Part shown: positions 25,120-39,819 of the stretch, one piece after another
Layout of the letters: every line of letters starts with the position of its first letter
How positions within the stretch are numbered: the first letter of the stretch is position 1
NCBI GenBank assembly: GCA_900317025.1
Contig: ONFG01000017.1
Span: 1 to 39,844 of the forward strand
Origin: an uncultured Eubacteriales bacterium
Lineage (GTDB): Bacteria > Bacillota > Clostridia > Oscillospirales > Acutalibacteraceae
Reading direction: 5' to 3'
DNA: 39,844 nt
Program-made: the position numbers and the translations under genes
The notes under the pieces: generated by a model
Seen by the model: the letters and a program-made list of their open reading frames with translations, nothing else
Told to the model about the DNA's origin: nothing
Database searches by the model: none

Positions 25120-25149
25120 AAAAGAAAGAGCCACCCGCAAGGGCAGCTC
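25120..25149 (-). terminator. Terminator of the DAHP synthase gene
   Basis: GAGCTGCCC and GGGTGGCTC pair over 9 bp (two G-U) with a TTGC loop, then TTTCTTTT. Confidence 0.85.
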
Positions 25150-25165: not shown

Positions 25166-26203
25166 TCAGATCATATCGGCGATATCGTAGATGAGCTTTT
25201 CGGACTTTTCCCAGCCGAGGCAGGGGTCGGTGATCGACTTGCCGTAGATCATGTCGTCGGCTTCGGTGATCTGCTGGTTGCCGTCTTCGATGTAGCTCTC
25301 GATCATAAGACCTTTGACAATGCGCTTGATGTCGTCGTTCTGGTGTATCGAGCGGATGACCTCCTCGCTTATGCGGATCTGCTCCATGAAGCGCTTGCCG
25401 GAGTTGGAGTGGTTGGTGTCGATGATGACGGCGGGGTTTTTGAGGTTCGTCTTCTCGTAAGCCTCACAGAGGGAAAGCAGGTTTTCGTAGTGGTAATTAG
25501 AAACACTCCTGCCCTGCGGGTCCTGATAGCCTCTGAGGATGGCGTGGGCGTAGGGGTTGCCCTTGCTCTCGACCTCCCAGCCTCTGTAGATGAACGTCTG
25601 GGGGCTTTGAGCCGCCGTTACGGAGTTGAGCATGATGCCGATGTCGCCGCCGGTAGGGTTCTTCATGCCGACGGGAACGTCGATGCCGCTTGCCGTGAGG
25701 CGGTGCTGCTGGTTCTCGACGGAGCGCGCGCCTACTGCGACGTAAGACAGCAGATCGGAGAGGTAGCGGTAATTATCGGGGTAAAGCATCTCGTCTGCGC
25801 TGGTAAGCCCTGTTTCGGCGAGCACACGCATATGGAGCTTTCTGATCTTGATGATACCCTTGAGCATATCGGAATCGGAGAGCGGGTCTGGCTGGTGGAG
25901 CATACCCTTGTAGCCCTTGCCGTTCGTTCGCGGCTTATTGGTGTAGACTCTGGGGACGATCAGCAGTTTGTCCTTGACCTTATCCTGTACCTTTGCAAGG
26001 CGCGTCACGTAGTCCATGACGGACGTTTCGTAATCTGCGGAGCACGGTCCGATGATGAGCAGGAATTTGTCCGATTCGCCGGAGAAGATCTTTTTTATCT
26101 GCTCGTCTCTTTCCGCCTTGACCTTAGCCATCTCGTCCGTAACGGGGAACGAATCCTTCATCTCCTTCGGTACGGGCAGCTTTCTTTTAAATGTACAGTT
26201 CAT
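25166..26203 (-). CDS. aroF: 3-deoxy-7-phosphoheptulonate (DAHP) synthase, class I alpha
   Basis: 345 residues; condenses PEP and erythrose 4-phosphate in the first step of aromatic amino acid synthesis. Type I-alpha (AroF/G/H-like) hallmarks are LLIIGPCSADYE, PRVYTNKPRTNGKGYKGMLHQP, GARSVENQQHR, MKNPTGGD and IDTNHSNSGK. An AAGGAG site lies 10 nt before the ATG. The paralog letter (F, G or H) cannot be fixed from sequence; the Tyr/Phe-rich leader peptide upstream argues for control by tyrosine, and perhaps phenylalanine. It appears monocistronic. Confidence 0.94.
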   Translation of the reverse strand: MNCTFKRKLPVPKEMKDSFPVTDEMAKVKAERDEQIKKIFSGESDKFLLIIGPCSADYETSVMDYVTRLAKVQDKVKDKLLIVPRVYTNKPRTNGKGYKGMLHQPDPLSDSDMLKGIIKIRKLHMRVLAETGLTSADEMLYPDNYRYLSDLLSYVAVGARSVENQQHRLTASGIDVPVGMKNPTGGDIGIMLNSVTAAQSPQTFIYRGWEVESKGNPYAHAILRGYQDPQGRSVSNYHYENLLSLCEAYEKTNLKNPAVIIDTNHSNSGKRFMEQIRISEEVIRSIHQNDDIKRIVKGLMIESYIEDGNQQITEADDMIYGKSITDPCLGWEKSEKLIYDIADMI

Positions 26204-26223
26204 AATGATGTCTCTCCTTCAAC

Positions 26224-26253
26224 AAAAAACCGACGCATGAACTTTGCGTCGGT
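26224..26253 (-). terminator. Attenuator terminator (3:4 hairpin) in the DAHP synthase leader
   Basis: ACCGACGCA and TGCGTCGGT form a perfect 9-bp stem with a 7-nt loop, then six T, ending just before the aroF ribosome binding site. Its upstream arm overlaps the 9-nt antiterminator partner at 26250-26258. Confidence 0.93.
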
Positions 26254-26338
26254 CTTATAGTCATATCTGTGATCCTTTGGCGAAGCTACGCCTGCAAGCA
26301 CTTTCCGCACGACAATAAGACCGGGATAAAAGCCCGGT
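26250..26338 (-). promoter_or_regulatory. Attenuator: competing 1:2 and 2:3 helices
   Basis: Segment 1 ACCGGG (26333-26338) pairs with CCCGGT (26320-26325). The overlapping segment 2 CGGTCTTAT (26315-26323) is also a perfect 9-bp complement of ATAAGACCG (segment 3, 26250-26258), which shares bases with the terminator. Segment 1 starts inside the last Tyr codon of the leader peptide. A ribosome stalled on the Tyr codons would mask segment 1 and let 2:3 form (read-through). A ribosome reaching the stop would cover segment 2 and let the terminator form. Confidence 0.85.
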
Positions 26339-26384
26339 AAATAAAGTAAAAATACGAATACTTATACTCTGTTACAGCTGTCAT
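26286..26384 (-). CDS. Tyr/Phe-rich leader peptide of DAHP synthase
   Basis: 32 codons ending in TAG. Residues 7-16 read YKYSYFYFIY: five Tyr in ten, and three Phe in the whole peptide (positions 12, 14 and 19). A GAGGTG ribosome binding site lies 4 nt before the ATG. It is transcribed from the consensus promoter at 26415-26443, with its start about 24 nt into the transcript. The peptide itself has no expected product function; its codons would report the level of charged tRNA-Tyr (and perhaps tRNA-Phe). Confidence 0.88.
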   Translation of the reverse strand: MTAVTEYKYSYFYFIYRAFIPVLLSCGKCLQA

Positions 26385-26414
26385 AAAGCACCTCAAAAGC
26401 GGATCGTTGCGTTC

Positions 26415-26443
26415 AGTATAGCAGATAAGACGAAAAAAGTCAA
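26415..26443 (-). promoter_or_regulatory. Promoter of the DAHP synthase leader-gene transcript
   Basis: TTGACT-N17-TATACT on the minus strand. The stretch 26444-26642 beyond it shows no gene; it holds only a CCCGCGCGGG palindrome and a T run. Confidence 0.9.
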
Positions 26444-26642
26444 TAGAAAACGAAAAAATATTTTAACGATTTTATGTGCTAAAGCGGGTCGTCAAGCGCC
26501 GACAGGCAGTTCGCGGCAACAACTTTTTTTACCACCGTCTTTACCCCGCGCGGGACGGCTGGATCGGCAAGCCTGCATTATGTGCAGCTCAAGTTGTTGG
26601 CGAGACACGGGTGAATGGTTTGTAAACAATTTGTGAATTACG

Positions 26643-26671
26643 TTGAACAAAGCATATGTTTATAGTATAAT
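26643..26671 (+). promoter_or_regulatory. Promoter of the ABC-deoD-cdd-CPBP operon
   Basis: TTGAAC-N17-TATAAT, about 80 bp before the ATPase start. Confidence 0.88.
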
Positions 26672-26753
26672 TCTTTTTAAGAGACAAATTTTGGTCATTT
26701 TAGTTAATTGTGAGAGAATTCCTAAATACTATACAATAGGAGGTCGGTACATT

Positions 26754-27476
26754 ATGATCGAATTTAAAGCTGTAAGCAAAACGTACAACGGAAAGGTCAA
26801 GGCGCTTGATAACATGAATTTTACGGTCGGCGACGGCGAGCTTGTAGGCTTCATCGGCCCTAACGGCTCCGGTAAAACGACTACTATCAAGCTGCTTTCG
26901 GGTATACTCGTCCCCGATAAAGGCACGGTCAAAGTCAACGGCTTCGACGTCAATAAAGAGCCGCTGAAGGCGAAGGCTTCGATCGGGTATATCGCCGATA
27001 ATCCCGACGTCTTCCTGCGCCTTAAAGGGATAGAGTTCCTCAACTTTATCGGTGACGTATACAAAACGCCCGCCGACGAGCGCAAGAAAACCGTCGACGA
27101 GCTTGCGGAGCGCTTCGAGCTTACGAACGCGCTCAACTCGCAGATACTCAGCTATTCCCACGGCATGCGCCAGAAGCTGATGGTCATTGCGGCGCTCATG
27201 CACAAGCCGAAGGTCTGGATCCTCGACGAGCCGATGACAGGTCTTGACCCGAAGTCTTCCTTCGAGCTTAAAGCGCTCATGCGCGAGCACACAAAGCAGG
27301 GCAACAGCGTATTCTTCTCGACTCACGTTCTCGAGGTCGCCGAAAAGCTCTGCGATAAGGTCATCATTATCAAAAAGGGTCACAAGCTTTACGACGGAAC
27401 GCTCGCTGAGCTTGAAAAGAAAAACAAAGACAAAAACCTCGAGGATATCTTCCTTGAGCTGACCGGCAAAAAGTGA
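26754..27476 (+). CDS. ABC transporter ATP-binding protein
   Basis: 240 residues: Walker A GPNGSGKTT (near 36), Q-loop, signature SYSHGMRQK (near 136), Walker B VWILDEPMTGLDP, and a switch His in FFSTHVLEV. It belongs to the CcmA/EcsA-type exporters with a separate permease. The start MIEFKAVSK follows TAGGAGGT. It is paired with the membrane protein that follows; the substrate is unknown. Confidence 0.94.
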   Translation: MIEFKAVSKTYNGKVKALDNMNFTVGDGELVGFIGPNGSGKTTTIKLLSGILVPDKGTVKVNGFDVNKEPLKAKASIGYIADNPDVFLRLKGIEFLNFIGDVYKTPADERKKTVDELAERFELTNALNSQILSYSHGMRQKLMVIAALMHKPKVWILDEPMTGLDPKSSFELKALMREHTKQGNSVFFSTHVLEVAEKLCDKVIIIKKGHKLYDGTLAELEKKNKDKNLEDIFLELTGKK

Positions 27477-39514: not shown

Positions 39515-39590
<76 letters not shown>

Positions 39591-39743: not shown

Positions 39744-39819
39744 TGGAGCGGATGACGGGGCTCGAACCCGCTACCTCCACCTTGGCAAGGTGGCGCTCTA
39801 CCAGATGAGCTACATCCGC
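39744..39819 (-). tRNA. tRNA-Gly (anticodon GCC)
   Basis: 76 nt with an encoded CCA. Acceptor GCGGATG/CATCCGC identical to the neighbouring tRNA-Gly, anticodon loop TTGCCAA, T-loop TTCGAGC. Reads GGC and GGU. Confidence 0.97.

Follow-up and report, generated by a model that had tools for sequence, protein, structure and literature searches.

We consider the leader of aroF in the window, by which we mean the whole stretch of 39,844 nucleotides, from an uncultured Eubacteriales bacterium, that was analysed. It is highly likely that this leader is a ribosome-mediated transcription attenuator of the trp/pheA type that senses Tyr/Phe-tRNA, and it would very probably lead the cell to produce the aroF enzyme chiefly under a shortage of charged tRNA-Tyr or tRNA-Phe. 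The parts of the leader, their conservation, their pairing and the dependence of this pairing on ribosome position in a folding model are what the analysis shows. Conservation in the genus, the terminator arms and a separate class of Tyr/Phe leaders before aromatic genes (the GCPS class) all support the attenuator that the initial annotation had proposed here. The last of these provides independent support: the matches to the model of that class in the order sample all stand before aromatic genes.

All of the leader parts (Table 1) are on the minus strand, flanked by an ORF at 26700-27383 and by aroF; the terminator is 20 nt 5' of aroF. The consensus promoter of the initial annotation is found with ten of the twelve positions matching, and its TTGAC and the TATA-T of the -10 are invariant in all 14 of the genus upstream regions aligned (14 of the 17 in hand). 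An AT-rich block like TTTAAATCgnTAAAttTTTTT (window 26450-26485), about 10-40 nt 5' of the -35, is present in many of these 14 regions and is, judging by its sequence, a candidate UP element or operator. The leader ORF translates as MTAVTEYKYSYFYFIYRAFIPVLLSCGKCLQA followed by the stop codon; its 32 codons, its own ribosome binding site and its five Tyr plus two Phe codons in ten (codons 7-16) are as previously described, as is the third Phe, Phe19. At least seven Tyr/Phe per ten codons are reached by 1 of the 574 window ORFs of 10-60 aa and by 1 of the 46,324 ORFs in 50 dinucleotide shuffles of the window. The aroF gene encodes an AroFGH-type DAHP synthase that scores over two NCBIfam cut-offs (265.9 bits versus 173.2 for TIGR00034 and 359.6 versus 343 for NF009395), and the terminator-like site 3' of the gene suggests a transcript that may carry this one gene. 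Elsewhere in the window, two tRNA genes are found on the minus strand (39518-39590 and 39747-39819).

Table 1. Features of the aroF leader in window coordinates, with the loci of the second leader class
Feature	Position	Strand	Basis or context
Sigma-70 type promoter, TTGACT-17-TATACT, TG before -10	26415..26443	-	10/12 consensus
Shine-Dalgarno-like GAGGTG of leader ORF	26389..26394	-	sequence, ATG 4 nt downstream
Leader peptide ORF, 32 codons + TAG	26286..26384	-	translation; genus conservation
Control codons 7-16, YKYSYFYFIY, 5 Tyr + 2 Phe	26337..26366	-	sequence
Segment 1 (ACCGGG), begins within last Tyr codon	26333..26338	-	6 bp with segment 2, dG -8.5
Segment 2: CCCGGT pairs with segment 1; CGGTCTTAT + GTCGTG with segment 3	26308..26325	-	pairing
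Segment 3 (TATGAC, ATAAGACCG), antiterminator partner	26250..26265	-	2:3 dG -14.9
Terminator hairpin 3:4, ACCGACGCA/TGCGTCGGT	26229..26253	-	dG -14.2; arms covary in genus
U tract, predicted premature 3' end	26224..26229	-	sequence
aroF, DAHP synthase, presumed regulated gene	25166..26203	-	TIGR00034, NF009395, PF00793
Terminator-like site 3' of aroF	25128..25149	-	consensus match only
Second-class leaders	L116-L131, L135, L136, L140-L143, L181-L189		before DAHP synthase, chorismate mutase-prephenate dehydratase or aminotransferase

In the proposed mechanism, the RNA polymerase would start at about 26408 (as placed from the -10) and a ribosome would translate the leader. With ample charged tRNA-Tyr and tRNA-Phe, the ribosome would reach the stop codon, segment 2 behind it would pair with segment 1, and segment 3 would be left free for segment 4, so that transcription would end at about 26224. 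With Tyr or Phe tRNA in short supply, the ribosome would stall with Tyr13, Phe14 or Tyr16 in the A site and segment 1 covered; segment 2 would then pair with segment 3 over 9 + 6 bp, forming the antiterminator ahead of segment 4 synthesis, and aroF would be transcribed. In reading the leader as an attenuator, we infer that the ribosome stalls and that transcription terminates, and likewise which amino acid is sensed and how the cell benefits.

The three helices that such a mechanism uses, all of them named in the initial annotation, are present in the window. Helix 1:2 (26338-26333 with 26325-26320) has 6 bp, its first position agreeing with the earlier placement of segment 1 in the last Tyr codon; helix 2:3 (26323-26315 with 26258-26250) has 9 perfect bp; and helix 3:4 (26253-26245 with 26237-26229) has 9 bp followed by the U run. 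Helix 2:3 is longer than was claimed: past one U-U mismatch it continues for 6 bp, two of them G-U (26313-26308 with 26265-26260), which brings its dG to -14.9 versus -8.2 for the 9 bp alone. The duplex of segments 2 and 3 reaches -20.4 kcal/mol versus -12.8 +/- 2.5 in shuffled sequences, and is equalled in 7 of 1000 shuffles of the segment 2 region, in 8 of 1000 with both sides shuffled and, with a wider region, in 0 of 500; the leader as a whole folds with z = -3.2 (1 of 200 shuffles equally stable). The helices were described as excluding each other, and they do overlap; 2:3 and 3:4 have only four bases in common (ACCG), so that 2:3 opens the base of the terminator and not the whole of it. 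The location of segment 2 under the codons before the stop does not stand, since the segment ends about 20 nt 5' of the leader stop codon and is therefore not directly under the last codons in the window copy. The window has an ORF that is rich in codons for the pathway product and has its own Shine-Dalgarno sequence, an intrinsic terminator by both sequence and folding, and an antiterminator that overlaps the terminator (by the four bases) and involves leader codons. In the ribosome-free fold (window 26308-26387), bases around the GUCGUG of segment 2 are paired with the region of the leader start, which could possibly damp leader translation.

Next we turn to the ribosome-position model, an equilibrium folding in which the RNA behind the ribosome is left out and the front edge of the ribosome is set 12 nt past the first base of the A-site codon (edges at +9 and +15 move the results by about one codon). 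Before segment 3 is made, 1:2 has a probability of 0.97 without a ribosome and of 0.96-0.98 with one at codons 1-12; this drops to 0.50 with the A site at Tyr13, and it is 0 from Phe14 on. For 2:3 in the full leader, the probability is 0.30-0.49 for codons 1-12, rises to 0.60-0.79 for codons 13-17, and then declines to 0.56 at codon 18, 0.17 at codon 19 and 0 from codon 20, while 3:4 is at 0.70-0.87 for codons 13-17 and at 0.99 from codon 19. Because the RNA behind the ribosome is left out, the zeros of 1:2 past codon 14 and of 2:3 at the stop arise partly by construction, and the 3:4 pairs at codons 14-17 still average 0.70-0.72 at equilibrium. The ribosome masks 1:2 from codons 13-14, yet at equilibrium 2:3 displaces 1:2 before segment 4 is made: in a transcript that ends before segment 4, 2:3 prevails even without a ribosome (0.97). 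The off state therefore needs 1:2 to form first and to persist kinetically, which we assume. Among the 15 genus leaders modelled in the same way, the terminator probability of the full leader is 0.7 or lower at some codon in 13 (all but L003 and L009, which have hardly any dip), and several relatives reach their minimum one to five codons after the last core Phe; in L014 the terminator is at 0.10 even without a ribosome. In 13 of the 15, the left arm of the terminator is, ahead of segment 4 synthesis, less paired with the ribosome at the stop than with it at the last core Phe; L009 and L016 show no such fall.

A search of 60 genomes (the window's own included) gives a DAHP synthase match in 28, including 19 of the 22 genomes of the genus. 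The Tyr/Phe enrichment that the initial annotation expected of related leaders is borne out: a Tyr/Phe leader lies 5' of aroF in 15 of the 18 genus loci read, and a sequence model of the window class (R2) matches 17 of the 22 genus genomes, of which 15 are training genomes and two (G001 and G013) are new; R2 has no match in genus genomes G003, G007, G009, G011 and G014. Locus L004 ends at a contig end after 115 nt, and the overlapping sequence at another contig end of the same genome (L163) has the leader MNGKYSFSISYYYFTKPGYFPANLLRTKLREV. By eye, L006 and L007 among the 18 loci have promoter-like sequence and no leader 5' of aroF, and these two appear to be natural losses as far as their sequences suggest. 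One further R2 match (L164) is discounted, as it lies on the opposite strand over the G017 leader. In the window's own genome R2 finds only the aroF leader, and the 450 nt upstream of pheA, which there follows a chorismate synthase-like ORF, contain no Tyr/Phe leader. R2 also matches weakly (E 7.6e-4) at L139:645-734, in a different genus of the family; the leader there, MTNFNFTNAYFYFSFTYFMSRAYRYATQG, is 5' of a Bacillus-type DAHP synthase and a prephenate dehydrogenase-like ORF.

Within the genus, the terminator arms differ in sequence (GACGC/GCGTC in the window, GATATC/GATATC in L008, GATGT/ACATC in most others) but keep almost every pair, the exceptions being one unpaired cell each in L005 and L014, and a gap in L003. 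In the A2 leader set, several leader ends were placed by hand; the terminator search had found none for L002 and L003. Of the compensatory changes anticipated for the helices, those in the 3:4 arms are seen, while helix 2:3 is less uniform. Tested against 500 shuffles per leader, the native 2:3 duplex is at 30 or fewer in 8 of the 15 genus leaders: it is strong in the window and L008 (0 of 500), good in L005, L011, L013, L014, L015 and L017 (15-29), middling in L010, L012, L018 and L019 (57-70), and weak in L003 (158), L009 (118) and L016 (101). The native partner is better than every swapped partner in 7 of the 15. Support for the antiterminator is strong in the window and mixed in its relatives. 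The window segment 2 reads CGGTCTTAT-T-GTCGTG; in L009-L019, the left arm and loop of the terminator pair with a conserved GTCGTGC together with codons at the leader stop or close to it, and the CCGG hairpin of these leaders lies clear of the bases that pair with segment 3, so that 1:2 is no direct competitor there.

The codons themselves are kept. The last two core codons are TAC TTT in all 15 genus leaders, and the Tyr two codons before them is TAC in ten and TAT in five, a synonymous change. The peptide C-terminus has a partly conserved stretch in the genus that differs between subgroups. Ligand-dependent arrest of the ribosome by its nascent peptide operates in the tnaC and erm leaders, and the hydrophobic aromatic run, together with this C-terminal stretch, would suit a Tyr/Phe-rich peptide that arrests the ribosome on a ligand (free tyrosine, phenylalanine or a drug) rather than at an empty A site. 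We regard such an arrest as improbable: the order of residues varies, from YSYFYF to FTYFYF and YSYYYF in the genus and from FYFYYF to YYYYYY and RFYYYSY in the GCPS class, while the Tyr/Phe content holds, and the counting of codons fits this better than an arrest motif does.

As to known regulatory RNAs, the window's genome has six T-box matches with E of 1.9e-15 or better, one of them over the Rfam cut-off, which fits the earlier remark that Firmicutes often use T-boxes; the genes behind them read as pheS, trpE, alaS, thrS, leuA and trpB, by our reading of the sequences. The window leader has no Rfam family at gathering score. T-box RF00230 is absent at that score and also among the four permissive matches to 26150-26750; the best permissive match at the leader, MAT2A_A (23.1 bits versus 40, E 0.01), is taken as chance, and RF00512 Leu_leader is the only Rfam amino acid leader to appear (14.9 bits versus 50, E 2.6). 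A T-box or other Rfam RNA is accordingly rejected as the identity of the leader, there being no match at gathering score. Rfam was also run on 12 related loci (L116, L121, L124, L126, L142, L187, L193, L139, L162, L163, L008 and L014), a set that covers 5 of the 28 GCPS leaders of A6, and returned only two tRNAs and one ZTP riboswitch at cut-off, with the leaders all below it. The riboswitch (ZMP/ZTP, over the gathering score) is at L014:2849-2953, in the aroF locus of a genus relative.

These searches bear on an attenuator that works without translation, in which a protein or small molecule would choose between 2:3 and 3:4 and the ORF would be incidental. The helices alone could switch, and 2:3 is stable without a ribosome; however, we judge this quite improbable in view of the Rfam results for the window leader and the 12 loci, and of the conservation of the ORF, its start codon and its Tyr/Phe codons through a synonymous TAT/TAC change. 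Upstream of aroF more widely, 80 named loci comprise 7 with an accepted Tyr/Phe leader, 1 with a spurious ORF (L092, which passed the Tyr/Phe filter but has no terminator found and no R1 match), 2 with a T-box-like core, 44 with a gene within 80 nt upstream, 24 with none of these and 2 with too little sequence. The T-box-like cores (L070 and L111, by pattern) stand 5' of aroF in place of a leader peptide. Locus L094, with a weaker Tyr/Phe ORF, was not used.

Six more Tyr/Phe leaders 5' of aroF in other Clostridia (L023, of the same family as the window, and five from named MAGs) have a common RNA core unlike that of the window class: a Tyr/Phe run, GGCUGCCCGU or the like near the leader stop, and ACGGACAGUCC or the like opening the terminator. 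These are the founders of the GCPS class. A sequence-only model of the six (R1) matches 21 of 295 genomes in the order sample (18 judged true, 3 spurious) and 10 of 391 in the class sample (5 true, 5 spurious); on the window and 85 of the aroF loci it matches only its six members. A model of 28 leaders with the 2:3 helix included (R3) matches 27 of the 295 order genomes, 9 of them outside the model, and all 27 matches are before aromatic genes: DAHP synthase in 6, chorismate mutase-prephenate dehydratase in 6 and a PRK06836-like aminotransferase in 15. Gene identities come from BLAST comparison with references, a part of these having been scanned with NCBIfam or Pfam; the Tyr/Phe content of the R3 matches is partly built into the model, and the downstream genes are not. 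In the class sample R3 matches 8 of 391, six before the same aromatic genes (G079 and G054 also being in the order sample), one (L193) upstream of the gene for a PF04392 ABC substrate-binding protein and one spurious, and in the phylum sample it matches 1 of 398, again G054. Rejected as spurious, with no aromatic gene downstream, are the R1 matches L132-L134 (order) and L144-L148 (class) and the R3 match L194. The leader at L193:1501-1665, MKRRFFYYYYYYFSPAVECCAANI, has 9 Tyr/Phe in 10 and a weak R3 match (E 2.7e-4); its neighbour is a candidate Tyr/Phe-controlled transporter, to go by sequence. In three GCPS operons the leader heads chorismate mutase-prephenate dehydratase, aroB, aroC, aroE/K, (aroQ), aroA, tyrA and aroF; in the L195 operon the aminotransferase comes first after the leader. 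The operon genes are named by Pfam for L195 and by likeness of translations for the other two.

The pairing of segments 2 and 3 is kept in the GCPS class, with few true double changes. In 28 leaders and two model fragments (L122:1355 and the L140 minus strand), aligned without fitting to structure, 92.5% of the segment 2/3 cells are standard pairs, versus 11-43% in slid controls and with 0 of 500 shuffles reaching 92.5%. At one pair C-G changes to U-A in 5 rows; the covariation score is reached by 2 of 500 shuffles, the number of doubly changed pairs by 28 and that of doubly changed cells by 103. Counted from the first base of segment 2, the stop codon follows at 15-33 nt in 27 of the 28 leaders and at 48 nt in L140. 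The modelled mean of 2:3 is 0.81 when the ribosome stands six codons short of the last Tyr/Phe, 0.50 when it is at the last Tyr/Phe and 0.42 without a ribosome, and is 0 at the stop by construction. In the 24 of 28 rows used (four late-starting rows being left out), the duplex of the leader Shine-Dalgarno sequence with segment 2 is below the shuffled mean in all 24 (mean -12.2 versus -7.6) and at 10 or fewer of 200 shuffles in ten. Modelled in this way, the GCPS Shine-Dalgarno sequence possibly acts as segment 1; given its ability to pair with segment 2, the start of leader translation would in this RNA be tied to the choice between termination and read-through. The data do not support placing the window genus and the GCPS class in a single RNA family, since the models do not cross-match: R1 and R3 have no match in the window's genome, and R2 has none in G031, a carrier of a GCPS leader. 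We put forward only tentatively the wider proposal that Clostridia have at least two separately evolved Tyr/Phe attenuators at the entry to aromatic synthesis, where T-boxes might stand, with the Shine-Dalgarno sequence as segment 1 in the wider class and with a reach that extends at most to an entire aminotransferase-pheA-aroB-aroC-aroE/K-aroQ-aroA-tyrA-aroF operon.

The ORF might instead encode a functional small peptide, with the terminator ending the ORF's own transcript and some read-through into aroF. Its own promoter, Shine-Dalgarno sequence and terminator would agree with this, but its composition tracks the pathway product, the GCPS order matches are 27 of 27 before aromatic genes, and its C-terminus differs between genus subgroups, which makes a functional peptide very improbable. 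One shuffled ORF of the 46,324 does equal the Tyr/Phe density, and T-rich DNA yields Tyr/Phe codons easily since they are all TWY, but a chance association of a T-rich ORF with a terminator is rejected as extremely improbable on the genus conservation, the duplex shuffles and the ORF density counts.

We return to the attenuator and its meaning. In uncultured gut Clostridia, it would be a predicted sensor of Tyr/Phe supply at the step that commits to aromatic synthesis, although the same genome has T-box matches in front of pheS and trp genes, i.e., one control logic standing where another could. Leader-peptide control by Tyr/Phe is seldom described in this bacterial group, and the absence of any Rfam model at cut-off for the window leader and the 12 related loci suggests that leader-peptide attenuation is under-recorded in the phylum. 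With two classes, the apparent losses (L006 and L007) and the T-box-like alternatives (L070 and L111), the origin of leader attenuators becomes directly testable.

Leader-peptide attenuation is a classical mechanism. An attenuator of Corynebacterium glutamicum aroR-aroF was reportedly described by Neshat in 2014, and a Tyr-tRNA attenuator of aroF is said to have been hypothesised by Camakaris in 1980. The E. coli pheA and trp leaders follow, in the portions of the source at hand, a four-segment logic (PMC11802643); it is the same as that of the window leader, in a different phylum and with no sequence similarity claimed. For aroF of E. coli and Shewanella, the available sections of two papers mention a hypothesised Tyr-tRNA attenuator (PMC8632094, PMC2659441), which by description has the same gene and signal, in Proteobacteria. 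The uORFC-13-1 motif of Acholeplasma, which differs from the E. coli 5' UTR, has a promoter, a ribosome binding site, a uORF with at least one Phe codon and a terminator 5' of aroF, with 24 representatives only in Acholeplasma and environmental sequences, according to the portions available (PMC8632094); the common layout at aroF is a likeness by description. A survey of five genomes including Clostridium novyi (Stav 2019, PMC6429828) has, in its accessible part, two Phe- and Tyr-containing uORFs associated with shikimate genes, and these resemble the Clostridia leaders, by description, in their Phe/Tyr content and shikimate link. In the open-licence literature we find no account of the Tyr/Phe leaders of these Clostridia, with which the Stav 2019 motifs may overlap. 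The mechanism is thus known, and the Clostridia aroF leader is seemingly a new instance of it, with a possible Stav 2019 overlap for the wider class. The accessible parts of the literature also describe His leaders in Firmicutes (PMC2965389, PMC9413887, PMC4833913) and a Leu leader of Staphylococcus aureus ilvD (PMC5794164), i.e., leader-peptide attenuation among T-box users with other amino acids and genes; together with the 2019 Phe/Tyr uORFs, these soften the earlier view that such a leader is surprising for a Firmicute. A related arrangement is that of C. glutamicum aroR-aroF, where, as the sections at hand describe it, ribosome stalling on a Phe-Tyr-Phe leader peptide enhances transcription, and Phe limitation matters while Tyr availability does not (PMC11802643, PMC4046766). 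Likened by description, both have a leader peptide 5' of aroF, the Corynebacterium being an Actinobacterium with three control residues, and its response to Phe and not to Tyr implies that the Tyr codons of the Clostridia leader may not be the effective ones.
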